From: an uncultured Lachnospiraceae bacterium
GTDB lineage: Bacteria; Bacillota; Clostridia; Lachnospirales; Lachnospiraceae
NCBI GenBank assembly: GCA_902779505.1
Contig: CACZBZ010000016.1
Location: forward strand, 1-44,309
Length of the DNA: 44,309 bases
Direction: 5' to 3'
Shown here: piece after piece, positions 19,485 through 35,271 of the stretch
Position numbering within the stretch: position 1 is the stretch's first letter
Layout of the letters: each line of letters begins with the position of its first letter
Position numbers and translations under genes: made by a program
Notes under the pieces: model-generated
The model's database searches: none
What the model was told of the DNA's origin: nothing
The model's input: the letters and a program-made list of their open reading frames with translations, nothing else

Positions 19485-19529
19485 ATATAAAGTCAGAAAG
19501 CTAAAGGTCTGATCAATTGAATATTGAAG

Positions 19530-19708
19530 AAAAAGGTGCCTTTGACGACTTTAGTCGGGCCAAAGGGTAAAAGGGAAACAGGTGAAAGACCTGTACGATC
19601 TCGTCACTGTGATGCGGAATCTGCTGTCAGATCATTATGATAGTCACTGGTATCAACCGGGAAGACGACAGCAGGTGATGATGCTTAAGTCAGGAAACCT
19701 GCCTTTTT
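19530..19708 (+). promoter_or_regulatory. Cobalamin riboswitch
   Basis: The conserved elements appear in order: AAAAGGGAA (19569-19577), AGGTGAAAGACCT hairpin, CGTCACTGTGA, GTCACTGG, CCGGGAAGAC and the B12 box AAGTCAGGAAACCTGCC (19687-19703). A closing stem P1 can form between AAAAAGG (19530-19536) and CCTTTTT (19702-19708). The remaining leader to 19866 holds the expression platform and the ribosome site. In this 418-base gene-free stretch I see promoter, aptamer and terminator, and nothing else. It should repress the whole downstream locus when cobalamin is plentiful. Confidence 0.95.
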
Positions 19709-19781
19709 GCTTGGTACATATGATCACGAGGAATTGGTCGTGCCGTTTGGAAAAGGGTTAAGATACCTTTTTATTTTATGT

Positions 19782-19866: not shown

Positions 19867-21477
19867 ATGAAGAAATTAGTTGTAGCAGCTCTGATCGCAG
19901 CAATGACAATGTCAATGCTTGCAGGATGCGGTGAAACTGCTGAGAATGTAACAACTGAGTCAGTACAGGAGGAGACAGCCGTGGAAGAAACTGCGGAAGC
20001 TGTAGATGATCAGGCGGCAGCAGATAATGTTGCGGCATTGATCGATGCCATCTATGTTCAGGAGAGAACAGATGAGACGGATGCCCAGTGTGCTGCAGCA
20101 AAGGCTGCATGGGATGCACTTACAGATGCTCAGAAGGAACTTGTAGAGGGTGAGAATGCCGATCCCGATTATTTCGGAAGAGATACAGGTGATGCGTCCA
20201 AAGACGATCCACGTAACGGAGACGATATCGGAGACAATGAAATACTTGTTGTAAGCTTCGGTACATCTTTTAACGAAAGCAGAGTTAATGATATCAAGGG
20301 CATTGAGGATGCGCTTGCTAAGGCTTATCCCGACTGGGCTGTAAGACGTGCCTTTACAGCACAGATAATCATCAATCACATTCAGGCAAGAGATGAAGAG
20401 AAGATAGATAACATGGACCAGGCTCTTGAGAGAGCAGTTGCTTCAGGAGTTAAGAATCTTGTTATTCAGCCTACACATCTTATGCATGGTGCGGAATATG
20501 ATGAGATGAAGGAAGCTCTGGATGCATATGCCGACAAGTTCGAGAAGCTGGCAATTGCAGAGCCTCTTTTAGGTGAAGTGGGTGCCGACGGCAATGCTGT
20601 CAATGATGATAAAGAATATGTAGCCAAGGAAGTCGTAGCTGCAGCAGCCAAGTCAGCCGGCGCAGCAGATATCAAGGCTCTGGCAGATGACAGTACAGCA
20701 CTTGTTCTTATGGGACACGGAACATCTCATACTGCAAAGGTATCATACAGCCAGATGCAGACACAGATGAATAAGCTGGGGTATGACAATGTATTCGTAG
20801 GTACTGTAGAGGGGGAACCTGAGGAGACAGCTTGTGAGAATATCATCGAAGCAGTAAAAGAGGCAGGCTTTACAAAAGTAATACTCAGACCGCTTATGGT
20901 TGTTGCAGGCGATCACGCCAACAACGATATGGCAGGCGACGAAGAGGATTCATGGAAGAGCATGTTTGAAGCTTCAGGCAATTTTGAAAGCATCGACTGC
21001 CAGATAGAAGGTATGGGAAGGATTGAAGCTATCGAGCAGCTCTATGTTAATCATACACTGGCAGCTATTGACAGCCTCGGCAACTTAAGCATATCTTCAA
21101 CAGCGGCTGCAGGTGAACTTGCAGACGGAACATACACTGTTGATTTCAACACTGATTCCAGCATGTTTCGTGCCAATGAAGCGCTTAACGGCAAGGGAAC
21201 ACTTACAGTTAAGGACGGAAAGATGACGGCACATGTAAGCCTTCAGTCAAAGAAGATCCTCAATCTTTTTGTAGGTCTTGCAGCTGATGCCGAAAAAGAC
21301 GGAGCAAAGCTTCTTGAGCCTACAACGGACACAGTAAAATACGCTGACGGAACAACAGAGGAAGTAAACGGCTTTGATATTCCCGTAGAAGCTCTTGACA
21401 AGGAATTCGATCTTGCCTTGATAGGTACTAAGAATAAGTGGTACGATCATAAGGTAAGCTTTTCCAATCCACAGTAG
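19867..21477 (+). CDS. cbiK: Lipoprotein CbiK-type cobaltochelatase with NEAT-like C-terminal domain
   Basis: A 536-residue protein. A lipoprotein signal ends in LAGC (Cys21), so it is predicted to sit outside the membrane. A spacer module (about 50-100, AAKAAWDALTDAQKELV) precedes the CbiK domain (about 122-400): ILVVSFGTSFNESR, VIQPTHLMHGAEYDE (His204, His207, Glu210) and LMGHGTSH (His284), matching the metal-binding and catalytic regions of sirohydrochlorin cobaltochelatase CbiK. A further domain (about 418-536: DGTYTVDF, LTVKDGKMTAHVSL, a late WYDH) resembles NEAT-like surface domains and the next gene's product. ATG 19867 has a GGAGGAG site. Cobalt insertion is normally cytoplasmic, so its location is odd; it may act on imported tetrapyrroles instead. 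It is the first gene under the riboswitch. Confidence 0.85.
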   Translation: MKKLVVAALIAAMTMSMLAGCGETAENVTTESVQEETAVEETAEAVDDQAAADNVAALIDAIYVQERTDETDAQCAAAKAAWDALTDAQKELVEGENADPDYFGRDTGDASKDDPRNGDDIGDNEILVVSFGTSFNESRVNDIKGIEDALAKAYPDWAVRRAFTAQIIINHIQARDEEKIDNMDQALERAVASGVKNLVIQPTHLMHGAEYDEMKEALDAYADKFEKLAIAEPLLGEVGADGNAVNDDKEYVAKEVVAAAAKSAGAADIKALADDSTALVLMGHGTSHTAKVSYSQMQTQMNKLGYDNVFVGTVEGEPEETACENIIEAVKEAGFTKVILRPLMVVAGDHANNDMAGDEEDSWKSMFEASGNFESIDCQIEGMGRIEAIEQLYVNHTLAAIDSLGNLSISSTAAAGELADGTYTVDFNTDSSMFRANEALNGKGTLTVKDGKMTAHVSLQSKKILNLFVGLAADAEKDGAKLLEPTTDTVKYADGTTEEVNGFDIPVEALDKEFDLALIGTKNKWYDHKVSFSNPQ

Positions 21478-21491
21478 TATAAGAGATCGGT

Positions 21492-21887
21492 ATGAAAAAT
21501 ATATTTAAAAGATTATTTATTGTATGCATCATTGCGGGCATGCTTTTTGCATGCCTTACAGGATGCGGAGACAAAAAACTTGAAGACGGAAGTTACAGTG
21601 TAAAACTGTCCATGGAAGGAGGAACGGGAAAGGCCTATATTGAGTCTCCCGTCACTGTTACCGTGAAAGACGGTGCGGCCTATGCCAAACTTGTATGGAG
21701 CAGCAAGAACTATGATTATATGCTTGTTAACGGAGACAAGTATCTGAACGAGTCTGAGGGAGGTAATTCTACATTTACCGTACCCATAGACGGAATTCCG
21801 TCTGATATGCAGGTTATAGGAGATACTACAGCCATGAGTGTACCTCATGAGATCGAGTATACTCTGCATTTTGAAATGGATAACTAG
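21492..21887 (+). CDS. Small NEAT-like lipoprotein, function unknown
   Basis: A 131-residue predicted lipoprotein with a lipobox LTGC (Cys25). The mature part is one domain: DGSYSVKL, VTVTVKDGAAYAKLVWSS, NYDYMLVNG, then FTVPIDGIP and AMSVPHEIEYTLHF. The pattern parallels the last ~115 residues of the preceding CbiK protein (DGTYTV, LTVKDGK, FDIPVEAL, WYDHKVSF), so the two domains look homologous. NEAT domains bind heme-type tetrapyrroles in other Firmicutes; binding of a corrinoid or porphyrin here is inference. It lies between the chelatase and the substrate-binding protein, and abuts the next start. Confidence 0.7.
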   Translation: MKNIFKRLFIVCIIAGMLFACLTGCGDKKLEDGSYSVKLSMEGGTGKAYIESPVTVTVKDGAAYAKLVWSSKNYDYMLVNGDKYLNESEGGNSTFTVPIDGIPSDMQVIGDTTAMSVPHEIEYTLHFEMDN

Positions 21888-23027
21888 ATGAAAAAAATAT
21901 ATTTTGCATTAATAACATTAGGTCTTATGATGGCTCTGAGTGCATGTGGCGCTCAGAGCTTTTCTGGCATTTATAAAGGGGAAGATTTTGCAACCTTAGA
22001 GCGGACCGGAGAGTGGGAACTCAACTATGCCAAGATGTATTCCGTGGAGGAATACGGGGCATACAGCCTGGTCAAAACAGACGATGGGAGCAGCTTTTTA
22101 GTGGTCCCCGAAGATGAGGAAGTTCCATATAATCTGCCCGAAGGAACAGAGGTATTGAAACAGCCTCTTAACAATGTCTATCTTGCATCATCTTCTGTTA
22201 TGGATATGGTGTGTGCCATAGGTGCGACGGATGACATACGTTTTACAGGAACTAAGGAAAAAGACTGGCATATTGATGAAGCCGTTAAGGCTATGCAGGA
22301 AGGCAGACTTCTCTATGGCGGAAAATACAGTCAGCCGGACTATGAACTCATACTTAAAGAGGACTGCGACCTGGCGATAGAGAACACTATGATATGGCAC
22401 AATCCCGAGACAAAGGAGAAACTGGAAGAAGTGGGAATCCCGGTGCTTGTGGAATTGTCAAGCTATGAGGAAAATCCCATGGGCAGACTGGAGTGGATAC
22501 GTCTCTACGGACTTCTTTTTGACAAAAGAGATGCGGCGGAAGATTTCTATGCAGAGCAGTTGAAGGCTTATAATGAGATAAGCGAAGGGGATAAAACAGG
22601 CAAGACTGTGGCTTTTTTCTATGTAAATGCCAACGGAGCCGTCAATGTCAAAAAAAGCATGGACTACATTCCAAAGATGATAAGAATGGCAGGAGGAGAA
22701 TATATTCCTTCCGATGTGGGAGATGAGGAAGAGAATGCCTTATCAACCGTGAACATGCAGATGGAAGAATTCTATGCAGATGCCAAAGATGCCGACATTC
22801 TGATATACAATACCACGGTTGTATCTGATATAAACAGCGTTGATGAGATACTGGACAAGGATGAACTGTTCGCCGATTTCAAGGCGGTAAAAAACGGGAA
22901 AGTATATGTGGCGGGTACAGACTTTTTCCAGAAGACCACAGGAGTCTGCAACATGATAAAAGACCTGAGTGTGGTCTTACATGAGGAGGATGAAAGCAAT
23001 CTGATCTTCCTCAGACACATATATTAA
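21888..23027 (+). CDS. btuF: ABC transporter substrate-binding lipoprotein (BtuF/FecB type)
   Basis: A 379-residue lipoprotein (lipobox LSAC, Cys20) with the two-lobed class III periplasmic-binding fold used for corrinoids, heme and siderophores. Typical stretches are VYLASSSVMDMVCAIGA, YELILKEDCDLAIENT, LVELSSYEENPMGRLEWIRLYGLLFDK and the C-terminal lobe AKDADILIYNTT, FKAVKNGKVYVAG. It precedes matching permease and ATPase genes under a cobalamin riboswitch, so a corrinoid ligand is the best guess. The ligand cannot be read from the sequence alone; a heme or cobinamide ligand remains possible. Confidence 0.85.
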   Translation: MKKIYFALITLGLMMALSACGAQSFSGIYKGEDFATLERTGEWELNYAKMYSVEEYGAYSLVKTDDGSSFLVVPEDEEVPYNLPEGTEVLKQPLNNVYLASSSVMDMVCAIGATDDIRFTGTKEKDWHIDEAVKAMQEGRLLYGGKYSQPDYELILKEDCDLAIENTMIWHNPETKEKLEEVGIPVLVELSSYEENPMGRLEWIRLYGLLFDKRDAAEDFYAEQLKAYNEISEGDKTGKTVAFFYVNANGAVNVKKSMDYIPKMIRMAGGEYIPSDVGDEEENALSTVNMQMEEFYADAKDADILIYNTTVVSDINSVDEILDKDELFADFKAVKNGKVYVAGTDFFQKTTGVCNMIKDLSVVLHEEDESNLIFLRHIY

Positions 23028-23044
23028 AACGAAAAACTAAGACT

Positions 23045-24061
23045 ATGAAAATAAGCAGAAAAAACTATTTTCCAATCTTCATATTGCTGACACTCTTGCT
23101 TTTGATTCTGATGGTATGGAATATCTGCACGGGAAGTGTGGATATATCTGTCAGTGACATTGTGGGAGTGCTTACTAAAGGGCGTGGAAACGACACCGCA
23201 AGCAGGATAATCATGGACATCCGTATGCCCAGGGTTATTGCGGCTGTGGTTCTGGGAGGAGCTCTGTCTGTATCGGGATTCCTGCTTCAGACATTTTTCC
23301 GTAACCCCATAGCAGGTCCCTACGTCCTGGGTATATCATCGGGAGCCAAGCTTGTGGTGGCCCTCTTTATGATATTTATGCTTTCAAAGGGAATTAATAT
23401 CAATTCATTGGGCATGGTGGCGGCCGCTTTTGTGGGTGCCCTTATGGTAACGGGCTTCGTACTCATCATATCCACCAAGACAAGGAAGATGTCCTTGCTT
23501 ATTGTCTGCGGTATACTTGTGGGCTATGTATGTTCCTCGATCACGGATCTCTGCGTGACCTTTGCGGATGATTCCAATATAGTCAATCTTCATAACTGGT
23601 CCATGGGAAGTCTGTCCGGTATGAACTGGAATGACGTGACTATTATGACTATTCTGGTGGGACTGGTGGTGGTCATTGCTTTTATGTATTCAAAACCCAT
23701 AGGAGCCTATCAGCTGGGGGAGACTTATGCGGAGAGCATGGGTGTAAAGGTAAAGAGTCTGAGAGTACTTGTTATCCTTTTATCAAGTGCTCTTTCGGCA
23801 TGTGTTACAGCATTTGCGGGCCCTATATCTTTTGTCGGTATTGCGGTACCTCATCTGATAAAGAGCATTACTAAAACGGCAAAGCCCCTCATACACATTC
23901 CGGCTTGTTTCTTGGGAGGAGCCATAATTACCGTCTTCTGTGACGGAATATCCAGAACTCTTTTTGCGCCGACGGAACTTGCCATAAGCTCCGTAACATC
24001 AATTTTGCTGGTGCCTGTGGTTATATTCATGATGTTGAGACCGGGAGGACGTAATGAGTAA
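23045..24061 (+). CDS. btuC: ABC transporter permease, BtuC/FecCD family
   Basis: A 338-residue polytopic permease of the FecCD/BtuC family that forms the import channel. Signature segments: RMPRVIAAVVLGGALSVSGFLLQ, FFRNPIAGPYVLGISSGAK, WSMGSLSGMNWND, LGETYAESMGVKVKSLR and the coupling-helix region AGPISFVGIAVPHLIK. About ten hydrophobic helices are visible. The ATPase gene overlaps its end by 8 bases, which supports one transporter with the preceding binding protein. Confidence 0.9.
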   Translation: MKISRKNYFPIFILLTLLLLILMVWNICTGSVDISVSDIVGVLTKGRGNDTASRIIMDIRMPRVIAAVVLGGALSVSGFLLQTFFRNPIAGPYVLGISSGAKLVVALFMIFMLSKGININSLGMVAAAFVGALMVTGFVLIISTKTRKMSLLIVCGILVGYVCSSITDLCVTFADDSNIVNLHNWSMGSLSGMNWNDVTIMTILVGLVVVIAFMYSKPIGAYQLGETYAESMGVKVKSLRVLVILLSSALSACVTAFAGPISFVGIAVPHLIKSITKTAKPLIHIPACFLGGAIITVFCDGISRTLFAPTELAISSVTSILLVPVVIFMMLRPGGRNE

Positions 24062-24827
24062 GAATCTGCGAACAGAGAAACTCTCAGTCGGATACGGTAA
24101 AAAATGTGTCATTGAGGGTATAGAACTGGATATAGAAGCGGGAAAGATCATAAGTCTTATAGGTCCCAACGGCTGCGGTAAGACAACCATACTAAGAACC
24201 GTATTAAAGCAACTTGAGACCCTGGCCGGATCTGTATATGTATCAGGCAGGGATCTGTCCGACATGTCAGGAGACGATATAGCTCATTTCATGTCCATGG
24301 TTACAACAAAAAGACCGGTGACTGAGCTTATGACCTGCAGAGAGGTGGTGGCCACCGGAAGATATCCTTATACGGGAAGATTCGGTCTTCTTAACGAAAA
24401 GGATGAGGAGAAGGTAAGGGAAGCCATAGAATTCATGCATGTGGAAAGCATAGCGGAAGAGGACTTTTCAAAAGTCAGCGACGGCCAGAAGCAGAGAGTC
24501 ATGCTGGCCAGAGCCATATGTCAGGAACCGGAGATACTGGTTCTGGATGAGCCCACATCTTTCCTGGATATAAGATACAAGCTGGATATACTTGACGGTA
24601 TATACAGATTGAGCAGAGAAAAGAACGTGACCGTTATAATGTCGCTGCACGAGCTGGATATAGCCAGGGGCATATCCGATAAGCTGGTATGTATTGAAAA
24701 TGGCAAAATCGGAAGAGTAGGTAAGCCGGATGAGATCTATAAGGACGGATATCTGGCAAAACTGTACGGAATAGACCCTGACTGTTTTGATGAAAAAACA
24801 GGAACGATTATTCTGAAGGAGCATTAA
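24054..24827 (+). CDS. btuD: ABC transporter ATPase, BtuD/FecE type
   Basis: A 257-residue nucleotide-binding subunit. Walker A is GPNGCGKT (37-44), the signature is SDGQKQR (Asp replaces the usual Gly, a tolerated variant), Walker B is [12 protein letters not shown], and the switch His is in SLHELDIA. The D-loop and size fit FecE/BtuD proteins. It starts within btuC and ends 5 bases before cbiP, so import and synthesis genes are in one unit. Confidence 0.9.
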
Positions 24828-24832
24828 GCAAT

Positions 24833-26353
24833 ATGGCAAAAGTAGTCATGGTACAGGGGACAATGTCAAATGTGGGAAAGAGCCTTGTTGTAGCCGGACT
24901 CTGTCGTGTGTTTAAGCAGGACGGATACAGAGTGGCTCCCTTCAAATCCCAAAACATGGCCCTTAATTCATACATAACTGAAGAAGGACTTGAGATGGGA
25001 AGAGCCCAGGTTATGCAGGCTGAAGCTGCGGGGATCGCCCCCAGAGTATGTATGAATCCCATACTTCTTAAGCCTACCAGTGATGTTGGTTCTCAGGTCA
25101 TAGTAAACGGCGAAGTCAAGGGCAGCATGACTGCCGGAGATTATTTTAAATTCAAAAAGCAACTGATACCCGATATCATCGCAGCCTTCAGAGAACTGGA
25201 AAAAGATGCTGATATCATCGTGATAGAAGGTGCGGGTTCTCCCGCGGAGATCAATCTGAAATCGGATGATATCGTCAACATGGGTATGGCGAAGCTTGTG
25301 GATGCCCCGGTACTCCTTGTGGGAGACATAGACAGAGGCGGTGTCTTTGCCCAGTTACTGGGAACCATGAATCTTCTTGAAGAGGATGAAAAAGAAAGAG
25401 TAAAGGGCCTTATTATCAACAAGTTCAGAGGTGACAAGACCATATTGGATCCCGGCATCGACATGCTGGAAGAAAAGGCCGACAGACCCGTTGTGGGAGT
25501 GCTGCCTTATACAAGACTTAATATAGACGATGAAGACAGCATGTCTGAGAGACTTGATAAGAGAAAAAGAGGACTGATCGATATAGGAGTCGTAAGACTT
25601 CCAAGGATGTCCAATTATACCGATCTGTCTGTTTTTGAGAGATTCCCGGAAGCGGGAATAAGATATATCGACGATCCGAGGGAGATAGAAGGAGCGGATA
25701 TGCTTGTTATCCCCGGAACCAAGAATACCATTGGGGATCTTAAATGGTTAAGAGAGACAGGCTTTGAGGCGGCAATAAAGAAATATTCCGCAGAGGGCAT
25801 AGTCTTCGGTATCTGCGGAGGCTATCAGATGCTGGGAATGAATATATCCGACCCTCATGGCATAGAAGAGGGCGGAAGTGTCAGAGGCATGGGTCTTCTT
25901 GATATAGACACCGAGATCAGGGAAGAAAAAGTAAGGACCAGAGTGGAAGGGGAGATGACCGTAGAGGAAGGACCTCTCAGATGTCTTTCGGGAAAGAGAG
26001 TCAAAGGCTATGAGATTCATATGGGTGCCAGCGATTCATCTTCCGACTCGGCCATTGTGAAGATATATTCCGAAGGAAGCAAAGAGATATGTAAGGTAGA
26101 CGGAGCAAGTAAGGGCAATGTATACGGAACTTACCTTCACGGAATATTTGATTCGGATGAAGTATCCGAAGCCATAATCTCATATCTGGCGGATAAAAAA
26201 GGAATAAACAGAGACCGTTCGCTTACGGAATCTTATGATGCATTTAAAGAAAAACAGTACGACATACTTGCAGACATGATAAGGGAAAACATGGATATGG
26301 AGAAGATATATTCCATGCTTAAGGATGTAAAGATAGCCGACGAGTATCATTGA
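24833..26353 (+). CDS. cbiP: Cobyric acid synthase CbiP/CobQ
   Basis: A 506-residue glutamine-dependent amidotransferase that amidates side chains b, d, e and g of adenosylcobyrinic a,c-diamide to give cobyric acid. The N-terminal dethiobiotin-synthetase-like ATPase has [22 protein letters not shown] and [26 protein letters not shown] stretch follows. The C-terminal class I glutaminase domain has [12 protein letters not shown], the nucleophile in [11 protein letters not shown] and the His in [10 protein letters not shown]. The length is typical. Confidence 0.95.
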
Positions 26354-26371
26354 TAAAGGCAAAGAGTAATT

Positions 26372-27436
26372 ATGGCAGGGATTGAAGATGTTCTAAGACA
26401 GGGATACGTCCCATCTTATGACAAAGGACTCTACAACAGCATAAAAGACAAGTGGGACAGAGTCAGTAAACCCATTGATTCCATGGGGGTCTTTGAGGAA
26501 ATTACTTCAAGGATTGGAGCCATACAGGGACGAGAGAAGCCGGGGGTCGTTAAGAATGTTATTCTGGTTTTTGCATCCGACAACGGAATAGTTGCGGAAG
26601 GGGTCAGCCAGTCGGGGCAGGAGATTACGGCCATATGTGCTGACGGAATCGCCGATATGAAGAGAAGTGTCTCGGTGATGGCGGAAAGCATCAAGGCGGA
26701 TGTGAAGCTGATAGATCTTGGAGTGGCTTTTGAACTTGCTTCTCCTAATATTAGCAACGAAAAGATAAGAAAGAGCAGTCGCAATTTCATGCTGGAGCCT
26801 GCCATGACAAGAGAAGAGACAGTTAAGGCCATTAACGTGGGATTCAGCCATGTAAAAGAGTCTGCGGATGCGGGTTATGACCTTGTGGGAATCGGAGAGA
26901 TAGGAATAGGCAATACCACTACATCCTCCGCTCTTGCATCCATCCTTTTAAGTCTTCCTGCAGAAGATGTAACGGGAAGAGGAGCGGGTCTTGATGACAA
27001 GGGGCTTGCAAGAAAAACAGAGGTAATTGACACTTGCGTCAGAAAATACAATTTAACTTCGGATGATCCTTTAAAAGCACTTGAGACTGTAGGGGGATAT
27101 GATATAGCTGCCATGGTGGGAGCATGTATCGGAGGAGCGGTCTTTGGTATTCCCATTGTTCTTGACGGATTCATAAGCAATGTGGCTGCACTTATTGCGG
27201 AGAGGCTTGTAAAAGGAACAAAAGACTATCTTATTGCATCCCATTTAAGCGGTGAGAGGGCTGCAGGCCTTGTACTTAAGGAACTGGAACTTGCTCCAGT
27301 AATCGATGCCCATATGGCCCTTGGAGAGGGAACCGGGGCAGTAATGATGATGGGACTTTTGCAGACAGCAAATGCCGTATATGAACACTGCAACAGTTTT
27401 AAGGAAGACGGAATAGAGGAATATAAGAGGTTATAG
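26372..27436 (+). CDS. cobT: Nicotinate-nucleotide:dimethylbenzimidazole phosphoribosyltransferase CobT
   Basis: A 354-residue enzyme that makes alpha-ribazole phosphate (or a related lower-ligand nucleotide) from nicotinate mononucleotide and a base. Motifs: FASDNGIVAEGVSQSG, the conserved GIGEIGIGNTTTSSAL, GRGAGLDDKGLARK and the catalytic Glu in ALGEGTGAVM. The length is normal. No bluB or bza genes for lower-ligand synthesis are in the window, so the base may be salvaged or made elsewhere. cobU follows after 3 bases. Confidence 0.95.
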   Translation: MAGIEDVLRQGYVPSYDKGLYNSIKDKWDRVSKPIDSMGVFEEITSRIGAIQGREKPGVVKNVILVFASDNGIVAEGVSQSGQEITAICADGIADMKRSVSVMAESIKADVKLIDLGVAFELASPNISNEKIRKSSRNFMLEPAMTREETVKAINVGFSHVKESADAGYDLVGIGEIGIGNTTTSSALASILLSLPAEDVTGRGAGLDDKGLARKTEVIDTCVRKYNLTSDDPLKALETVGGYDIAAMVGACIGGAVFGIPIVLDGFISNVAALIAERLVKGTKDYLIASHLSGERAAGLVLKELELAPVIDAHMALGEGTGAVMMMGLLQTANAVYEHCNSFKEDGIEEYKRL

Positions 27437-27439
27437 TTA

Positions 27440-27955
27440 ATGCTTATATTGATATACGGCGGAAGCGGAAGCGGAAAATCAGCCTACGCCGAGGAGCTTA
27501 CCGCAAGCTTTGAAGGTAAGAAATATTATCTTGCCACAATGAAAAGCGAAGGTGCGGAAGCTCTTGAAAGAATAGAAAGACATAGGGCCAACCGTGAGGT
27601 CAGAGGCTTTAATACAGTGGAGCGGGAGACGGATATAGGAGATGCCGTGAGAGATATGGAAGGAACAGTACTTCTTGAATGCCTTTCCAACCTCTTGGCA
27701 AATGAAATGTTCGGATCCGAAAGTAAAAGATCCGGAGAAGAACTCTGTCAGAAGATATTGGATGAGATTAATGAGCTGAAAGATAAGACGGCTAATCTCA
27801 TCATTGTATCCAACAATATCTTTGAGGACGGTTACGAATACGAGGGAGAGACAAGGGAATACATGGAAGTCCTGGGAAGGCTTAATATAAGCCTTGCAAA
27901 AGATGCTTCATCGGTCTATGAAGTCAACTCGGGAATCCCGGTTCAGATCAAATAA
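27440..27955 (+). CDS. cobU: Adenosylcobinamide kinase / guanylyltransferase CobU
   Basis: A 171-residue enzyme that phosphorylates adenosylcobinamide and transfers GMP to it, forming AdoCbi-GDP. The P-loop is GGSGSGKS (7-14). The RHR with His48 (ERHRANR) matches the region of the GMP-carrying His in CobU. LLECLSNLLANEMF and IVSNNIFEDG follow. The usual VSNEVG-x-G segment is changed here to VSNNIFEDG, while the short CobU-like protein at 28749-29135 keeps NEVGSGVVP. This raises the possibility that the two share or split the work. Confidence 0.88.
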   Translation: MLILIYGGSGSGKSAYAEELTASFEGKKYYLATMKSEGAEALERIERHRANREVRGFNTVERETDIGDAVRDMEGTVLLECLSNLLANEMFGSESKRSGEELCQKILDEINELKDKTANLIIVSNNIFEDGYEYEGETREYMEVLGRLNISLAKDASSVYEVNSGIPVQIK

Positions 27956-27964
27956 AGGAGAAAA

Positions 27965-28747
27965 ATGAAGGAGATTGTTAGTTTTTTCAGATCATTCATA
28001 GTGGCTTTTTCCATATATTCCAAGATACCCATGCCCCGCTTTGAATGGGACGGATCCGATATGAGATATCATCTTGTATTCTTTCCTTTTGTGGGAGCCA
28101 TTGCGGGAGCAATAGGCATCGGATGCTATCATCTGAGCCTTATCTGCGGCGCGGAGAGATTGCCCTTTGTGCTTATTGCAGGAGCACTTATCATCCTCTT
28201 TACGGGAGGACTTCATATAGACGGTATGATGGACACCATGGATGCCATTCATTCTTATCAGCCCAAGGAAAAGAAACTCGAGATTATGAAAGATCCTCAT
28301 GTGGGAGCCTTCGCAATCATAAGTCTTGCGGTATATCTTATGCTTTTTATTGCTTTTGTCTATGACATTACAGATAAAAGCGCTTGGTATATATTATGTT
28401 CTGCTCCGGTTATATCAAGAGCGTTATGCGGTCTTCTTATAATGACGACTAAGAATGCAAAAGATGAAGGCATGTTAAAAGCGGAGACAAAAGACAGTCC
28501 AAAGAGATTAATCATCGCTTTTTTGACAGTTGAACTTGTAATCATTCTTGCTTTGGTAGGTTTATTGAGTATTATTGCCACAGGCGCACTTATCATCGTA
28601 CAGCTTCTTGTATTGGTCTTCTACAGAAGAATGGCCTGCAGACAGTTCGGTGGAATGAGCGGAGATCTTGCGGGATGCTATGTCTGTGTTTCGGAACTTT
28701 TTACAGCCTTTACATTGTTCGTATTGGGCAAGGGAGGAATCTTGTGA
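27965..28747 (+). CDS. cobS: Adenosylcobinamide-GDP ribazoletransferase CobS
   Basis: A 260-residue integral membrane enzyme that joins AdoCbi-GDP to alpha-ribazole (phosphate), the last assembly step. The catalytic loop is recognisable: TGGLHIDGMMDTMDAIHS and KLEIMKDPHVGAFA, with the clustered Asp residues expected for a Mg-dependent transferase. A further acidic/glycine site, GGMSGDLAGC, is near the end. Multiple hydrophobic helices are present and the length is typical. AAAGGAG precedes the ATG. The next gene starts 1 base after its stop. Confidence 0.93.
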   Translation: MKEIVSFFRSFIVAFSIYSKIPMPRFEWDGSDMRYHLVFFPFVGAIAGAIGIGCYHLSLICGAERLPFVLIAGALIILFTGGLHIDGMMDTMDAIHSYQPKEKKLEIMKDPHVGAFAIISLAVYLMLFIAFVYDITDKSAWYILCSAPVISRALCGLLIMTTKNAKDEGMLKAETKDSPKRLIIAFLTVELVIILALVGLLSIIATGALIIVQLLVLVFYRRMACRQFGGMSGDLAGCYVCVSELFTAFTLFVLGKGGIL

Positions 28748-28748
28748 T

Positions 28749-29135
28749 ATGAGACTCTATATGGGAGGCGCTTTTCAGGGCAAGAAAGATTATGTGATGG
28801 CACTTTTTCCGGATGCTTACCCGGCGGAGGGAGAGTCTTTTTCGGAAGATGCTGTTGCCGGCAGAGATTTTGTATGGAATAATCTTCATCTCTATATAAG
28901 AGACGGACTGGCTAAGGGCCGTAGTGAGAGCGAAATAGAAGAAAAAGTATTAAAGATTGCGGACATGCCGGGATGCCTGGCTCTTATATGCAATGAAGTG
29001 GGAAGCGGAGTGGTTCCCATTAAGAAGGAAGAGCGTATCTTCAGAGAAGTCTGCGGACGTATTATGACAAAGCTTGCAGCTAAGGCGGAAGGCGTAGAGA
29101 GAATAGTATGCGGGATAGCAGTAAAGATAAAATAA
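28749..29135 (+). CDS. Short CobU-like protein
   Basis: A 128-residue protein related to CobU but shorter. It keeps a P-loop-like GGAFQGKKDY (6-15) and the C-terminal CobU block ICNEVGSGVVPIKKEER (80-96), FREVCGRI and VERIVCGIAVKIK. It has no clear equivalent of the His-Arg motif used for GMP transfer in CobU, so if active it may be kinase-only or regulatory. I placed the start at ATG 28749; an in-frame upstream start at 28668 lies inside cobS. It overlaps the next gene by 28 bases. The family call rests on the NEVGxGxVP motif and context. Confidence 0.7.
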   Translation: MRLYMGGAFQGKKDYVMALFPDAYPAEGESFSEDAVAGRDFVWNNLHLYIRDGLAKGRSESEIEEKVLKIADMPGCLALICNEVGSGVVPIKKEERIFREVCGRIMTKLAAKAEGVERIVCGIAVKIK

Positions 29136-29695
29136 TCGTATATCTTATAAGGCACGGTATGACTAAAGGCAATTCGGAACGCAGATACATCGGGACTACG
29201 GATGAAGATCTGTGTGAGGAAGGCATTAAGCGCCTTAAAGAAAAAGAATATCCCGTGGCAGATATCTGTTTTGTAAGTCCCATGGAAAGGTGCCGGCAAA
29301 CTGCGGATATCATCTATCCCAATATGAAGCCTGTGACAATCGAGGAACTTAGGGAGATTGATTTCGGACTTTTTGAAGGTAAGAACTATGAGGAACTGTC
29401 GGGAGACAAGTTCTATCAGGAATGGATAGACAGCAACGGAAGGCTGGATTTTCCTCAGGGTGAAACTATGAAGGACTTCACTTCCAGAACAATGAAGGGA
29501 TTCGGAAGAGCTCTTGATATGATAAAAGAAGAGGGGGTTCGGAAGGCGGTCTTTGTGGTTCATGGAGGCACCATCATGTCCCTTATATCGGGGCTTGGAA
29601 TCGGAGATTATTTTGATTCCATCGTGAATAACGGAGACACTGTCACATTGGAAGTTAAGAAGCTTGGCGAGAATATAGAGGCAAGGATTATATGA
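29108..29695 (+). CDS. cobC: Histidine phosphatase family protein, probable alpha-ribazole phosphatase CobC
   Basis: A 195-residue phosphoglycerate-mutase-like phosphatase. The phosphohistidine motif is LIRHGMTKGN (Arg15-His16-Gly17), followed by GTTDEDLCEEG, SPMERCRQTADI, EIDFGLFEGKNYEEL and the second-His motif VVHGGTIMSL. Many histidine phosphatases exist, but the position between cobU/cobS and cbiB genes makes alpha-ribazole 5'-phosphate (or cobalamin 5'-phosphate) the likely substrate. Its first 28 bases overlap the CobU-like gene; no better start lies nearer the RHG motif. Confidence 0.85.
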   Translation: MRDSSKDKIIVYLIRHGMTKGNSERRYIGTTDEDLCEEGIKRLKEKEYPVADICFVSPMERCRQTADIIYPNMKPVTIEELREIDFGLFEGKNYEELSGDKFYQEWIDSNGRLDFPQGETMKDFTSRTMKGFGRALDMIKEEGVRKAVFVVHGGTIMSLISGLGIGDYFDSIVNNGDTVTLEVKKLGENIEARII

Positions 29696-30672
29696 TTATT
29701 CTCTATCATATGGCGGCCACTCTGTTTGGATTCATCCTGGATCTTATACTGGGAGATCCGGAATGGCTCTATCACCCGGTAAGACTTATCGGGGGACTTA
29801 TAAGCAGATTGGAAAAGCGTTTCCTTTCTGATGAGACTATAAGTCCTGAAGCAAAAAGGAAAAAAGGAATAGCGACTGTGGTTATAGTATGCCTGACCAC
29901 GGTGCTTGTTACGGCAATCATAGTCATCGGATGCTATATGCTTAATCCCATTGCGGGTCTTATAGCGGAGACTCTCTTAAGCTACAGCATATTGGCGGCA
30001 AGGAGTCTGAGAGACGAGAGTATGAAGGTATATCGTGCCGTTGAAGCAAAGGATCTTGAAGGGGCAAGAAAAGCAGTGTCCATGATAGTAGGCAGAGACA
30101 CCGACAGTATGGATTATCCGCAGATAAGCAGGGCTGCTGTGGAGACCGTTGCGGAGAATACTTCGGACGGGGTTATAGGCCCCATGCTCTATACGGCAAT
30201 AGGCGGACCTATATTGGGTTATCTCTATAAGGCTATTAATACAATGGATTCCATGATCGGATATAAGAACGACAGATATATGGACTTCGGAAGATGCGCG
30301 GCGAAGTTGGATGATATTGTTAATTACCTGCCCGCAAGAATCAGCGCATATCTTATGATAGTTGCCTGTTTTTTTGCAGGAAAAGATTATGACGCGAAGA
30401 ATGCAGGGCGCATATATAAAAGGGACAGATACAATCATGCCAGCCCCAATTCGGCCCATACGGAATCGGTATGTGCGGGAGCACTGGGACTGAGACTGGC
30501 CGGTAACGCATCTTATTTCGGGAAGGTCGTTGAGAAGCCTTTTATAGGTGATGCCCTAAGAGAGATAGAAGCGGAAGATATAAGAAGAGCCAACAGGCTG
30601 ATGTTTATCAGTGAGGCCCTGTGCCTTATCTTTTGTCTGTTAATTATGGGGATTGTTTTGAAAGGATGCTAA
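29692..30672 (+). CDS. cbiB: Adenosylcobinamide-phosphate synthase CbiB
   Basis: A 326-residue membrane enzyme that attaches (R)-1-aminopropanol phosphate to cobyric acid. Family motifs: LDLILGDPEWLYHPVRLIG near the start, ETVAENTSDGVIGPMLY, DSMIGYKNDRYMDFGRCAAKLDD and ASPNSAHTESVCAGALGLRLAG. Several hydrophobic helices flank these. The start overlaps cobC by 4 bases. A second ATG at 29710 is also possible and would remove only six residues. cobD starts in its stop codon. Confidence 0.94.
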   Translation: MIILYHMAATLFGFILDLILGDPEWLYHPVRLIGGLISRLEKRFLSDETISPEAKRKKGIATVVIVCLTTVLVTAIIVIGCYMLNPIAGLIAETLLSYSILAARSLRDESMKVYRAVEAKDLEGARKAVSMIVGRDTDSMDYPQISRAAVETVAENTSDGVIGPMLYTAIGGPILGYLYKAINTMDSMIGYKNDRYMDFGRCAAKLDDIVNYLPARISAYLMIVACFFAGKDYDAKNAGRIYKRDRYNHASPNSAHTESVCAGALGLRLAGNASYFGKVVEKPFIGDALREIEAEDIRRANRLMFISEALCLIFCLLIMGIVLKGC

Positions 30673-31742
30673 TGCACGGAGGAGATATATATTCGGGAAA
30701 AGTGGATATTGACCTGTCGATTAATTGCAATCCTCTGGGTATGCCGGCATCTTTCAGGGAAGCATACGATAAGGCCTATCAAAGCCTGACGGCATATCCG
30801 GATCTTCTAAGCAGAAGCCTCAGGGAAAAGATAGGAGTTTATCACAGAGTGGATGCCGACTGTATCGTATGCGGCAACGGAGCATCTGAACTGATACAGA
30901 CTCTGTGTTATGCCATTAAGCCTAAAAGCGGAATGATTACGGCACCTTCTTTCTCAGGATACGAGAGAGCCTTGAGTAACGTAGGATGCGACATATATAT
31001 ATCCGAATTAATGGAAGAGGAAGATTACCTGATAGGGGAGCCTCTTATTAAAGACATTAAGGAGAAAAGACCTGACATGGTCTTCGTGGCAAATCCCAAC
31101 AATCCCAACGGCAGAAAGATCGACAGAGCCACGGGAGAGAGGCTTATTGAAGCCTGCAGGGAAAGCGGAAGCTTTCTTGTGATAGATGAGTGCTTTGTGG
31201 AACTGACCAAAGAAGGGGAAGGCAATTCCCTAAAGGACATGCTCGGAACTACAGGCGGAGCGATAGACGGAAGGGCAGACAGAGCAGTGATCATAAGATC
31301 CTTTACCAAGGCATATGCCATACCCGGTATAAGACTGGGCTATGCAATCTGCTCAAATAAAGAGATTGCAAAACTTATAACAGAGAGTCTTCCCGAATGG
31401 AATATATCCATACCTGCGACCGTGATGGGAGAAAAGGCGCTTGAAGAGGGAGACTATCTGGAGAGAGGAAGAGAGACCCTTGCGGAAGGCCTTACTTATC
31501 TTACAGCAGAACTTGAAGCAAGAGGCATGAAGGTCTATCCTTCCGATACCGCATATATTCTTTTCAGACTGCCGAATAAGAAAGCGGATCTGTATGAAAA
31601 GATGAAAGCCCGAGGAATACTTATCAGAGACTGCAGTGATTACAGAACTCTTGGAAAAGGATATTACCGGATTGCAATAAGAAACAGGGAGATAAATGAC
31701 CGCTTTTTAAAGATCCTGGATGAGGTTATGTCAGATGAATGA
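30672..31742 (+). CDS. cobD: Threonine-phosphate decarboxylase CobD (PLP-dependent)
   Basis: A 356-residue fold-type I PLP enzyme that decarboxylates L-threonine O-3-phosphate to aminopropanol phosphate, the CbiB substrate. Seen: LSINCNPLGMP near the N terminus, CGNGASELIQ, FVANPNNPNGR, VIDECFVELT and the PLP lysine Lys213 in SFTKAYAIPGIRLGYA. It is close to histidinol-phosphate aminotransferases, but the gene context and the INCNPLG-type start favour CobD. I use ATG 30672, which overlaps the cbiB stop by one base (TAATG) and follows AAAGGA; the longer open frame from 30621 lies in cbiB. Confidence 0.9.
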   Translation: MHGGDIYSGKVDIDLSINCNPLGMPASFREAYDKAYQSLTAYPDLLSRSLREKIGVYHRVDADCIVCGNGASELIQTLCYAIKPKSGMITAPSFSGYERALSNVGCDIYISELMEEEDYLIGEPLIKDIKEKRPDMVFVANPNNPNGRKIDRATGERLIEACRESGSFLVIDECFVELTKEGEGNSLKDMLGTTGGAIDGRADRAVIIRSFTKAYAIPGIRLGYAICSNKEIAKLITESLPEWNISIPATVMGEKALEEGDYLERGRETLAEGLTYLTAELEARGMKVYPSDTAYILFRLPNKKADLYEKMKARGILIRDCSDYRTLGKGYYRIAIRNREINDRFLKILDEVMSDE

Positions 31743-32370
31743 TAAAGGATTCGAATATGTTCTTCCCAAGGACATAGAGAAGAGAAGTTTTGAGATCATA
31801 GAAGAAGAACTGATAAGTCGAGGTCTTGTTATAGATCCTGCTGTAAAGGATGTTACAAAGAGAGTTATACATACCACGGCGGATTTTGATTACGCCGAGA
31901 GTCTGCTCTTTTCCAAGGGAGCAGTGGAGAAGGCCAGAGAACTTATTAAGGCCGGAGCGGATATAGTGACTGATACCAATATGGCCAAGGCAGGTATCAA
32001 TAAAAAGAAACTTGCCGAATACGGGGGAGAAGTTCATTGCTTTATGGCCGATGAGGACGTGGCAAGAGAAGCTAAAGAAAGAGAACAGACCAGAGCCAGT
32101 GTCAGTATGGAGAGAGCCTCCAAGCTTAAAGGTCCTGTTATATTTGCCATAGGCAATGCGCCCACAGCTCTGATAGCCCTTAAAGAGATGATGGATAAGG
32201 GCATATTCATACCGGAATTCGTAATAGGTGTACCGGTGGGCTTTGTTAATGTGGAAGTGGCAAAAGAACTTTTTATCGACGGAAGCGTCCCATATATCAT
32301 CAACAGAGGACGTAAAGGCGGAAGCAATGTGGCAGCAGCCATATGTAATGCATTGATATACGGAATATAA
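31735..32370 (+). CDS. cbiC: Cobalt-precorrin-8 methylmutase CbiC
   Basis: A 211-residue enzyme moving the C11 methyl to C12 to form cobyrinate. The catalytic His is His46 in VIHTTADFDYAE; downstream are VTDTNMAKAGINKK, AIGNAPTALIAL and GVPVGFVNVEVAKEL, all family hallmarks. I chose ATG 31735, 8 bases inside cobD, with GAGG upstream; an alternative ATG at 31720 would add five residues. The length is normal. Confidence 0.94.
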   Translation: MNDKGFEYVLPKDIEKRSFEIIEEELISRGLVIDPAVKDVTKRVIHTTADFDYAESLLFSKGAVEKARELIKAGADIVTDTNMAKAGINKKKLAEYGGEVHCFMADEDVAREAKEREQTRASVSMERASKLKGPVIFAIGNAPTALIALKEMMDKGIFIPEFVIGVPVGFVNVEVAKELFIDGSVPYIINRGRKGGSNVAAAICNALIYGI

Positions 32371-32383
32371 TTCGGAGACCGGA

Positions 32384-33484
32384 ATGAGATACGGATTTAC
32401 TACGGGAAGCTGTGCGGCGGCAGCAGCCAAAGCAGCGGCATATATGCTTCTCACAGGGAATATAAAAGAGAATATAAGCATAATAACTCCCAAGGGAATT
32501 ACTTTTGATGCAAAGATAGAAGATATCGTCAGAAGAGAACAGTATGTGGAATGTGCGGTAATAAAAGACGGAGGGGATGATCCCGATGTGACAAGCGGCG
32601 CCCATATTGTTGTGAGAGTAGAATACGGCGGTGAGGGCATAGACATTGAAGGAGGAAAAGGTGTGGGCAGAGTAACGCTTCCCGGCCTTGATCAGCCTCA
32701 GGGCAATGCTGCCATCAATCGTGTTCCCAGAGAGATGATAGCCAAAGAAGTAAAAGAAGTCTGCGACGTATGTGACTATAGAGGCGGACTTAAGGTGTCT
32801 GTCAGTGTTCCCGAGGGAGAGGAACTGGCATCTAAGACCTTCAACCCGAGACTTGGTATAGAGGGCGGTATATCCATACTGGGTACTTCGGGTATAGTGG
32901 AGCCTATGAGCAGTAAGGCTCTTATAGATACCATCAGAGTGGAACTCAATCAGAAGAAAGCACTTGGGCATGAATTCATAGCAGTGTCCCCGGGTAATTA
33001 CGGACAGGATTTCATGAAAAATGCCTATGACTACGATCTGGATAAAAGCGTTAAGTGTTCCAATTTTATAGGTGAAACAATAGATATGGTTAAGGAGGCG
33101 GGATTCAAAGGAATGCTGCTTACCGGCCACATAGGAAAACTTGTTAAAGTATCCGGCGGAATAATGAATACCCATTCCAAGGAGGCGGACGGCAGAATGG
33201 AACTGATGGCGGCAGCAGCCTTACGTGCCGGAGCAGACAGAGACCTATGCCTCAGAATCCTTGAATCCATATCAACGGAATATGCCGTTGACATCCTGAA
33301 AGAAGCGGATATTCTTGAGGATACTATGGACAGGCTTATGGAAAAGATCATGTATTACCTGAGGATAAGAGCGGGAGAGGATGTGAAGATAGAGTGCATG
33401 GTATATTCCAATGCTCATGGTCTATTAGGGAAGAGTGAGCAGGCTGAAGAGATGCTCGACAGTTGTAAGAAGAGGGGGGAATAG
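32384..33484 (+). CDS. cbiD: Cobalt-precorrin-5B C1-methyltransferase CbiD
   Basis: A 366-residue SAM-dependent methyltransferase specific to the anaerobic pathway. It begins with the family hallmark MRYGFTTGSCAAAAAKAAA. Later come GVGRVTLPGL, LGIEGGISILGTSGIVEPMS, SPGNYGQDF and LLTGHIGKLVKVSGGIMNTHS. Complete by length. The presence of CbiD with CbiG and CbiF defines the cobalt-early route. Confidence 0.95.
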   Translation: MRYGFTTGSCAAAAAKAAAYMLLTGNIKENISIITPKGITFDAKIEDIVRREQYVECAVIKDGGDDPDVTSGAHIVVRVEYGGEGIDIEGGKGVGRVTLPGLDQPQGNAAINRVPREMIAKEVKEVCDVCDYRGGLKVSVSVPEGEELASKTFNPRLGIEGGISILGTSGIVEPMSSKALIDTIRVELNQKKALGHEFIAVSPGNYGQDFMKNAYDYDLDKSVKCSNFIGETIDMVKEAGFKGMLLTGHIGKLVKVSGGIMNTHSKEADGRMELMAAAALRAGADRDLCLRILESISTEYAVDILKEADILEDTMDRLMEKIMYYLRIRAGEDVKIECMVYSNAHGLLGKSEQAEEMLDSCKKRGE

Positions 33485-33485
33485 T

Positions 33486-34244
33486 ATGGTACATTTTGTC
33501 GGTGCGGGTCCCGGAGCTAAGGACCTTATAACAGTCAGAGGAAAAGAATTATTGGAGAAAGCAGATGTGGTTATATATGCAGGGTCGCTTGTAAATACCT
33601 CGCTGCTGGATTATGCAAAGAAAGAATGTAAGGTATACAATTCCGCAACCATGACGTTGGAAGAGATAATTGAAGTCATGGAAAAATACAGGGACAGAAC
33701 GATTGTAAGACTGCATACCGGAGAGCCCAGTATATACGGTGCGGTAAGAGAACAGATGGACGAACTGGACAGACTTGGCATCCCTTATGATTCATGTCCG
33801 GGAGTCAGTGCCTGCTTTGGAGCAGCTGCAAGTCTCAATCTTGAATATACCCTTCCGTCAATATCCCAGTCTCTTATCATTACAAGGATGGCAGGGAGAA
33901 CGGAAGTGCCTTCCAAGGAGAGCATAGAGAGCTTTGCCTCTCATAAAGCCAGCATGGCAATCTATCTTTCGGGATCTATGCTTGGTGAACTGACGGAGAG
34001 ACTTATTGAGGGCGGATACAGTGAAGATACTCCGGCAGCAGTGGTATACAAGGCCACCTGGCCCGAGGAAGAAAAATATATATGCAGACTGGCGGATATA
34101 GAATCTACGGCCAGAGAGCACAATATCAGAAAAACGGTTCTGATATTGGTGGGCGATGTAATCAGCAGGACAGCAGTAGAGAAATCCAGACTTTATGCAG
34201 AGGATTTTTCGACGGAATTCAGGAAGGCAAAAAATGATAATTAG
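33486..34244 (+). CDS. cbiF: Cobalt-precorrin-4 C11-methyltransferase CbiF
   Basis: A 252-residue tetrapyrrole methylase. Motifs: VHFVGAGPGAKDLITVRG (SAM loop), YAGSLVN, LHTGEPSIYGA, the conserved CPGVSACFGAAASL and SQSLIITRMAGRTEVP, followed by IYLSGSML and VVYKATWPEE. The start is ATG 33486, the first codons matching the family N terminus; the open frame back to 33435 lies in cbiD. It is intact, unlike the related CbiH nearby. cbiG begins 11 bases before its end. Confidence 0.95.
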   Translation: MVHFVGAGPGAKDLITVRGKELLEKADVVIYAGSLVNTSLLDYAKKECKVYNSATMTLEEIIEVMEKYRDRTIVRLHTGEPSIYGAVREQMDELDRLGIPYDSCPGVSACFGAAASLNLEYTLPSISQSLIITRMAGRTEVPSKESIESFASHKASMAIYLSGSMLGELTERLIEGGYSEDTPAAVVYKATWPEEEKYICRLADIESTAREHNIRKTVLILVGDVISRTAVEKSRLYAEDFSTEFRKAKNDN

Positions 34245-35271
34245 AATATGTGCCTTTTCTTCGAAAGGCTTGGAAACGGCAGACAAAATCAAAGGTCTGT
34301 TAAAAGAGCATATTGTTGAATTAAGAGAGAAGAGCGAGAGCCTGGATATCTTTGTGGCTGCATCCTTTTACAAAAGGTCACCTCTTATATTTGTTTCCGC
34401 ATGCGGAATAGCAGTAAGAGCAATTGCCCCTTTTGTTAATGACAAGCTCTATGACAGCCCGGTATTAGTGGTTGATGAACTGGGAGAAAATGTTATCTCT
34501 CTTTTGTCCGGTCACGCAGGGGGAGCCAATGAACTGGCCCGTACTGTAGCGGACAGACTGGGAGCCCATCCTGTTATTACTACGGCCACGGATATTAACG
34601 GACTTTTTGCGGCAGATGTGTTTGCCGTAAAAAACGGTCTTAAGATAGTCAACAGGAAAGGAATTGTGAAAGTATCTTCCGCAGTTCTTGAAAAGGGAGA
34701 GATAGTTGTGGCGGTGGATCCCAAGATCGATATATCCGATAAGGACATGCCGACTGAGATCAAGCTTATTCCATTTTCTTCCGCAGATAAGGCTGATATG
34801 GTGATCACTTGCGATGATTGCAGAGAAAAGAAACAGGAGGATTCGAAGCTTTACCTTGTTCCCAAAGAACTGACTGTAGGTGTGGGATGCAAAAAAGATA
34901 CCGATGAGGCAGAGATTAGGAAGGCAGTGGATGAGAGTCTTGCCCTCTTGGAAGGAGAATGGGGCTGGGATGATATTCGTGCAATGGCAAGCATCGATCT
35001 GAAGGCCCGTGAGTACGGCCTTGTGGCAGTGGCACAGAAGAATAAGATTCCCCTCTTAACGTATTCATCCGAAGAACTTCAAAGAGTCGAAGGTGAATTC
35101 TCAGAATCGGAATTTGTAAAAGAAATGACAGGAGTGTCAAATGTATGCGAGAGAGCTGCCGTGCTCTCAGCGGGGGAAGGTGCGGAACTTCTGCTTAACA
35201 AGACACTCTATGAAGGAATAACCGTAGCCATAGCAAAAAGAAAGGCAAAGATAGAAAAGTGGAAAAACTGA
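34234..35271 (+). CDS. cbiG: Cobalt-precorrin-5A hydrolase CbiG
   Basis: A 345-residue protein that opens the ring-A delta-lactone and releases acetaldehyde. The N-terminal part shows ISLLSGHAGGANELARTVADRLGAHPVITTATD and IFVSACGIAVRAIAPF; the C-terminal domain shows LTVGVGCKKDT, a SIDLKAREYGLVAVA strand and the final VSNVCERAAVLSAGEGAELL. AAGGAAGG precedes ATG 34234. The N- and C-terminal domains are both present, so it is a full-length CbiG. Confidence 0.92.
   Translation: MIIRICAFSSKGLETADKIKGLLKEHIVELREKSESLDIFVAASFYKRSPLIFVSACGIAVRAIAPFVNDKLYDSPVLVVDELGENVISLLSGHAGGANELARTVADRLGAHPVITTATDINGLFAADVFAVKNGLKIVNRKGIVKVSSAVLEKGEIVVAVDPKIDISDKDMPTEIKLIPFSSADKADMVITCDDCREKKQEDSKLYLVPKELTVGVGCKKDTDEAEIRKAVDESLALLEGEWGWDDIRAMASIDLKAREYGLVAVAQKNKIPLLTYSSEELQRVEGEFSESEFVKEMTGVSNVCERAAVLSAGEGAELLLNKTLYEGITVAIAKRKAKIEKWKN

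Follow-up and report, generated by a model that had tools for sequence, protein, structure and literature searches.

CbiK of Salmonella is a cytoplasmic protein of the de novo pathway, and a periplasmic CbiK is known from Desulfovibrio vulgaris. Porphyromonas gingivalis has a further relevant protein, IhtB or FetB, treated in the available sections of PMC10913741, PMC13402209, and PMC13227078. Bacteria predicted to make cobalamin from precursors taken up at intermediate stages are also recognized; five types of precursor salvager are defined in the accessible text of Shelton 2018 (PMC6461909), a review available in part puts precorrin-2 salvagers at 0.6% (PMC8123684), and the part of PMC12654859 at hand classes as a cobinamide salvager a rumen population that has none of the 5 precursor steps and 8 of the 10 corrin steps. 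The best-ranked results of our literature search, which were mostly open access and included no preprints, described neither an uptake system for early B12 rings nor a CbiK-NEAT protein.

Here, we describe a locus that joins these subjects, in a stretch of 44,309 nucleotides from an uncultured Lachnospiraceae bacterium, referred to throughout as the window. A CbiK domain and a NEAT-like domain, NEAT-A, are fused in a single putative lipoprotein, the gene for which is the first behind a cobalamin riboswitch and is followed by an import block (Table 1).

Table 1. Features of the riboswitch-led chelatase and import locus in the window
Feature	Position	Strand	Details
Cobalamin riboswitch aptamer RF00174, upstream of chelatase gene	19517..19720	+	110.4 bits, E 5.9e-27, full model 1-189
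Lipoprotein CbiK-NEAT-A fusion ORF	19867..21477	+	536 aa; recovered at exactly these coordinates
Signal peptide with lipobox LAGC, Cys21	19867..19929	+	By eye and simple pattern
Helical spacer, about residues 39-122	19981..20232	+	Alignment and model
CbiK chelatase domain, residues 126-401	20242..21069	+	PF06180
NEAT-A domain, from about residue 417	21115..21474	+	Conserved WYDHxV motif
NEAT-B lipoprotein	21492..21887	+	131 aa; lipobox LTGC (by eye); YDYM and PHExxY motifs
BtuF-like substrate-binding protein	21888..23027	+	PF01497 E 1e-33; lipobox LSAC (by eye)
BtuC-like permease	23045..24061	+	FecCD E 2.9e-80; below equivalog cut-offs
BtuD-like ATPase	24054..24827	+	Below equivalog cut-offs
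Late cobamide genes cbiP, cobT, cobU, cobS, cobC, cbiB, cobD	24833..31742	+	
Corrin ring genes cbiC, cbiD, cbiF, cbiG, cbiH, cbiJ-E-T fusion, cbiA	31720..39264	+	

The N terminus of the fusion protein reads MKKLVVAALIAAMTMSMLAGCGE. Its signal and lipobox were called by eye and with a simple pattern, not with a signal-peptide program, and Cys21 is kept in at least 90% across 41 aligned relatives, in keeping with the lipoprotein signal assigned in a first-pass annotation of this DNA. A cytoplasmic form translated from an inner start was considered and rejected, as the stretch between residues 17 and 183 contains no Met. A helical spacer is present in most of the aligned relatives and absent from some. 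PF06180 matches the chelatase domain over its full length (242.9 bits, cut-off 26.2, E 4.5e-72), and residues E210, H284, E315, and H350, which are invariant in 41/41 aligned relatives, align to E89, H145, E175, and H207 of Salmonella CbiK. E89 and E175 are catalytic glutamates of the Salmonella enzyme. The accessible part of PMC7689651 assigns a catalytic role to His145 and His207. A full-length AlphaFold2 model (41 sequences, pLDDT 83) returned 1qgo, 2xvx, and 9b86 as its top Foldseek matches, and the likeness to periplasmic Desulfovibrio CbiK that had been pointed out earlier holds by both sequence and fold. The score against the NCBIfam equivalog for sirohydrochlorin cobaltochelatase did not reach the cut-off (196.5 versus 400 bits); we therefore grant the protein its family name, CbiK, and withhold the name of the reaction.

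The C terminus of the CbiK protein scores 21.9 bits on the Pfam NEAT model and the second NEAT domain of the window, NEAT-B, 24.2 bits, both below the cut-off of 32.8, so the assignment rests on fold. Profile searches gave weak matches to 3sik for NEAT-A (E 0.015) and NEAT-B (E 0.0048). The fold search used a tandem NEAT-A/NEAT-B protein from one relative (L111) in place of the window's two domains alone; modeled from 8 sequences (pLDDT 75), it found as its best solved matches in the PDB the NEAT proteins IsdH, IsdB, IsdX1, and IsdX2, with a TMt of 0.71-0.72 against IsdX1. A chance match to NEAT is rejected by this search, and the C-terminal domain of the window protein, already described as NEAT-like in the first-pass annotation, is predicted together with the lipoprotein that follows it to have the NEAT fold. 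The usual NEAT ligand motif is YxxxY. At the last-strand position, located without a structural overlay, this motif is matched by neither domain, NEAT-A having YDHxV and NEAT-B HxxxY, and the usual ligand pair looks altered in both. In L063, L065, L084, and other relatives, a stand-alone NEAT-B appears by eye to have a C-terminal membrane helix replacing the lipid anchor.

That the chelatase gene heads an import block had been noted before, and the downstream genes for NEAT-B, the BtuF-like protein, the permease, and the ATPase bear this out. In the window, cobS, cobC, cobD, and cbiA were named by eye, and the gene order is the same in relatives; neither cbiL nor cobA was found in the corrin ring gene block. 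CbiH (positions 35259-35885) has 208 residues and is without an inner stretch of ~35-40 residues that is present in three relatives of the genus. This gap is either a real deletion or an assembly fault, and the pathway of this particular strain may therefore be broken or misassembled. Two further features were seen around the operon. A second open reading frame with the C-terminal part of CobU (28668-29135) overlaps the cobS-like gene, in addition to the CobU-like gene at 27440-27955, and a TraX-like membrane domain joined to 7TM and GGDEF domains (17229-19448) lies just 5' of the riboswitch.

Gene order was read in 20 stretches from 20 relatives, two of which (L045 and L046) hold a CbiK without an export signal. 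Among the 18 stretches with an exported CbiK, the BtuF-like gene follows in 16 (not in L048 or L049), and cob/cbi genes lie within reach in 13 (not in L034, L043, L048, L049, or L050), some stretches ending early. A cobalamin riboswitch is present in 17 of 20 short loci of the secreted CbiK type (16 RF00174 and 1 RF01482). Of the other three, L018 and L029 extend hardly or not at all upstream of the gene, and L022 is a true miss. Because architecture and order recur in relatives, the observation is not a chance one.

A scan of named genomes extended this picture, the loci considered being the best 80 of 586 relatives. Their titles are mostly of Lachnospiraceae, with Oscillospiraceae, a Christensenella, one Treponemataceae bin, and one Eggerthellaceae bin also among them; the same type of cassette in the last two (L109 and L115) reflects either transfer between phyla or a binning error. 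CbiK and NEAT-A occur together in 80/80 of these loci, which is partly a matter of selection, as the query contained NEAT-A. Fusions among the best 80 link CbiK to NEAT-A in 48 loci, CbiK to NEAT-A and NEAT-B in 13, NEAT-A to NEAT-B in 8, NEAT-B to BtuF in 30, and NEAT-A, NEAT-B, and BtuF in 1, and all four modules are present in the flank read in 60/80. This chain of fusions suggests that the four may work as one relay. An export-type N terminus was read in 78/80 of the same loci: 69 have a lipobox by pattern, 4 a lipobox by eye (L084, L087, L117, and L118), and 5 a signal without a lipobox (L058, L060, L067, L068, and L074); no clear signal was read in L109 or L130.

A tree built from 68 rows groups all 50 secreted-type rows in one clade, on a branch with support of 100/99, the bootstrap not having settled. 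On the other side of that branch lie 16 cytoplasmic rows, FetB, and Salmonella CbiK, with long branches among them. The label "secreted" was assigned by family and thus includes L020 and L109, in which no clear signal is seen, and one cytoplasmic row, L009, was dropped for want of a long match. The neighborhoods of the two types were also compared for the cobalt importer CbiM, as a count of local neighborhood only. CbiM is within reach of a CbiK without an export signal in 5/17 stretches (L045, L145, L146, L155, and L157); it was found near a secreted-type CbiK in 0/99 stretches, comprising the window, 18 from relatives, and the 80 loci that are the best of 586, some of which may come from the same species.

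The CbiK proteins without an export signal show fusions of their own. In L155:9609-11270 and L157:10116-11789, a CbiO-like ATPase is fused to CbiK and adjoins CbiM and a CbiQ-like protein (CbiO and CbiQ named by eye); these are predicted to be a cobalt importer and chelatase in one protein. CbiK is fused to CbiL in L046:11161-12690 and to a CbiC-like domain, recognized by eye, in L147:8813-10285. Elsewhere, two CbiK domains share an open frame in G106:C46:2764-4686 (991 aa) and G108:C53:4689-6584 (741 aa), and divergent CbiK-like proteins (L136:5179-5955 and L137:3775-4551; 113 and 139 bits) adjoin TrkA/TrkH-like genes and a secreted-looking protein, all named by eye.

A context that the first-pass annotation missed, along with the riboswitch, is the state of the pathway itself. 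The genome of the window, which is 84% complete, has one CbiK only. Neither CbiX nor a second CbiK was found in it, and the earlier guess of another, cytoplasmic copy was not borne out. Its tetrapyrrole (TP) methylases are CbiF, CbiH, CbiE, and a gene read as RsmI-type; CbiL was not found at this completeness, which leaves the corrin ring set incomplete. The guess fared no better at the level of the genus: no separate CbiX was found in 20 genomes, and the matches to the CbiX model (11 rows in 10 genomes) all lie inside CbiK itself. The N termini of two genus CbiK proteins are unreadable, cut by contig ends. CobA, here meaning uroporphyrinogen-III methyltransferase, was found over cut-off in 0/20 genus genomes and HemC in 0/20, and CbiL is over cut-off in 4/20, with one further piece at a contig end. 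CobA and HemC, the first-part genes searched, are thus not found where corrin genes are kept, the pattern that defines a precorrin-2 salvager, and this holds within the limits of genome completeness, many of the genomes being incomplete MAGs.

Eighteen of 61 relatives have CobA over cut-off, and CbiK was found in 12 of the 18; a CbiK copy without an export signal is present in 9 of these 12, and only the exported type was found in the loci read from the other three (G021, G029, and G032). In 17/61, the only match to the CobA model is below cut-off and of CbiF type. CbiK is present in 16 of those 17, with a lipobox in 14/14 readable N termini (13 by pattern and 1, L023, by eye), those of G006 and G007 being cut by contig ends. 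Three genomes outside the genus, G023 (100% complete), G028 (96%), and G053 (90%), give the same picture as the genus; the search for CbiL found none in G023 or G053 and, in G028, a match just below cut-off. Assembly gaps as the whole cause of the loss of CobA and HemC are rejected by the 0/20 in the genus and by the complete genome of G023.

Fifty genomes were then compared, picked from the 80 loci (the best of 586) with isolates, long contigs, and cob-gene loci taken first; the Fisher tests on them ignore kinship. CobA is over cut-off in 13 and HemC is found in 13, with both in 12, either in 14, and neither in 36, so that only 2 genomes have one without the other (Fisher 1.4e-9). A CbiF-type match is retained in 35 of the 36 without either, the exception being G099. 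A separate, ordinary CbiK is present in 9/14 genomes with CobA or HemC versus 2/36 without (Fisher 3.5e-5), counts that include G099, as well as pieces at contig ends in G063 and G108, and exclude extra matches in G079 and G106, which are long frames of the secreted type. Adding two divergent paralogues raises the latter count to 4/36 (Fisher 3.5e-4); the second "CbiK" of G067 and of G077 is a divergent protein beside potassium-uptake-like genes. CbiL was found in 14/14 genomes with CobA or HemC versus 18/36 without, two matches below cut-off (G090 and G097) being counted as found, and in 17/35 of the CobA/HemC-less genomes with a CbiF-type match (Fisher 6e-4 versus 14/14).

By their titles, eight of the 50 records look like isolates. 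Neither CobA nor HemC was found in four of these (L062, L076, L111, and L125), and the others retain the first part as CobA (L089, L098, and L099) or as a piece of HemC (L083). Of two isolates without CobA, Lachnospiraceae AC2031 has CbiL, and in Butyrivibrio sp. AE2015 CbiL was not found. The Fournierella genome G082 was rejected as an exception: the HemC found there is a fragment at the edge of a contig, adjoining a HemA-like gene by eye, and the genome is therefore counted as having the first part. G061 has CobA as part of a CysG-like fusion, next to a cysK-like gene (names by eye), and HemC was not found in it. As 14/50 genomes keep CobA or HemC together with the secreted type, secreted CbiK is not tied to the loss; in these the cassette may be an extra supply route.

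A cell that keeps the ring enzymes without making the precursor should take up a compound from beyond the CobA step. The operon predicted to serve this uptake opens with an exported relative of cobalt chelatases and two folds of a ring-binding kind. On the simplest account, in our view also the best reading, sirohydrochlorin-type rings are captured, loaded with cobalt, and imported; this account does not cover the gap at CbiL. We give an even chance to the proposal that an exported, lipid-anchored CbiK-NEAT chelatase captures such a ring, loads it with cobalt or exchanges its metal, and relays it to BtuFCD. In essence, a sirohydrochlorin-type ring (factor II or III, possibly siroheme) that holds no metal or the wrong one would be captured outside the membrane, and the CbiK domain at the surface would insert cobalt or exchange cobalt in. 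The cobalt ring would then pass from NEAT-A to NEAT-B, to the BtuF-like protein, and through BtuCD, after which the retained cbi enzymes would complete the corrin inside the cell and the finished cobamide would probably turn the operon down via the riboswitch. The substrate, the metal, the direction of the reaction, the order of transfer, and the surface location are what we infer from the genes, and the proposal presumes that free sirohydrochlorin is to be had in gut or rumen. Insertion, removal, or exchange of metal in tetrapyrroles caught outside the cell had been suggested in the first-pass annotation, of which insertion or exchange is, as an inference, supported here; that annotation's interpretation as a whole is partly supported.

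CbiL was not found in 18/35 of the genomes that have a CbiF-type match and neither CobA nor HemC, in the genome of the window, or in G023, and these would therefore need a ring that is already C20-methylated or another enzyme. A bolder form of the proposal, which we advance more tentatively, is that the metal insertion of anaerobic B12 synthesis has been moved outside the cell, so that rings from neighbors are loaded with cobalt and imported, with species lacking CbiL importing cobalt-factor III. Were a cobalt isobacteriochlorin imported in this way, these bacteria of gut and rumen could make B12 from the half-made ring of another species with no need for cobalt insertion in the cytoplasm.

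Other explanations deserve consideration. The BtuFCD-type importer and the riboswitch would suit the capture of finished corrinoids or cobinamide, in which CbiK and NEAT only bind and hand their ligand to BtuFCD without any chelatase chemistry, and four CobA genomes (L058, L060, L068, and L074) do have the importer with no cbi genes in the flank read. Such a role seems unlikely, however, given that all four catalytic residues are kept (41/41), and it would leave unexplained why corrin ring genes are retained where CobA and HemC have gone.

Heme or siroheme processing, with a CbiK at the surface that takes iron out of captured heme-type rings or swaps it and so serves iron or porphyrin supply, would parallel the role proposed for IhtB/FetB. 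The structure of FetB (9b86) is one of the nearest to be solved, and in the available text of the sources it is said to put Mn into protoporphyrin IX (a review, PMC13402209) and IhtB is grouped with an ABC importer (PMC10913741). NEAT folds are known heme binders, and the BtuF-like protein matches IsdE weakly (29.2 bits, cut-off 298.65). This explanation is nonetheless improbable in light of the cobalamin riboswitch in front, the fact that the cassette leads the cob/cbi genes of the window and those of 13/18 stretches from relatives, and the placement of FetB outside the secreted clade, if on a long branch.

That the operon is a remnant, with decaying ring genes and an exported chelatase that has no present role in cobamide supply, could be read into the shortened CbiH of the window and the many genomes in which CbiL was not found; the recurrence of gene set and fusions across families and the invariant active site make it very unlikely. 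An as yet unknown enzyme, unrelated in sequence and able to escape profile searches, might replace CobA (and HemC), with the exported CbiK as the chelatase or an extra copy placed elsewhere; this is highly improbable given that HemC and CobA go together in the fifty genomes and that the search of the genus yielded neither a cytoplasmic CbiK nor a CbiX, two N termini there being unreadable.

Capture and cobalt loading of early rings would have consequences beyond this lineage. Predicted early-precursor B12 salvagers are known from comparative genomics, and the cassette, present in many gut and rumen Clostridia, isolates included, is a candidate uptake route for the predicted precorrin-2 salvagers that is concrete and testable. 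If the reading is correct, species exchange B12 intermediates that precede cobinamide, and the insertion of cobalt takes place outside the cell.

The window protein shares with Salmonella CbiK (1qgo) the fold and the catalytic residues, and with the periplasmic CbiK of D. vulgaris (2xvx, 2xvz) the fold and, by prediction, an extracytoplasmic location, the latter protein differing in that its chain of 269 residues has no room for a NEAT domain. A comparison with HmuS-like proteins made in the first-pass annotation did not stand: the available part of PMC13227078 places HmuS among the class I (CobN-type) chelatases and sees in it no likeness to CbiK, and HmuS is therefore no relative. The NEAT heme relays (Isd, IsdX1, and IsdX2) resemble the system in their fold and their FecCD-type importer, whereas the window system has changed ligand motifs, a chelatase at its head, and a cobalamin riboswitch. 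The lineage is like the precorrin-2 salvagers of Shelton 2018 in that steps to precorrin-2 (CobA and HemC) were not found and corrin genes are kept; it differs in that CbiL was also not found in half of the genomes without CobA and HemC, and the accessible text of that study describes no uptake machinery. A further parallel is FetB/IhtB of P. gingivalis, a CbiK-like lipoprotein with an ABC importer in the available part of PMC10913741, in an organism which is said in the accessible text of PMC6461909 to be without the steps to precorrin-2. Unlike the window system, FetB/IhtB has a TonB receptor, no NEAT domain in its chain of 293 residues (9b86), and a place in the tree outside the secreted clade, and it has been studied as a heme system. 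Should our reading hold, it would also offer another view of FetB itself, P. gingivalis being likewise without the precorrin-2 steps according to that partly available source.
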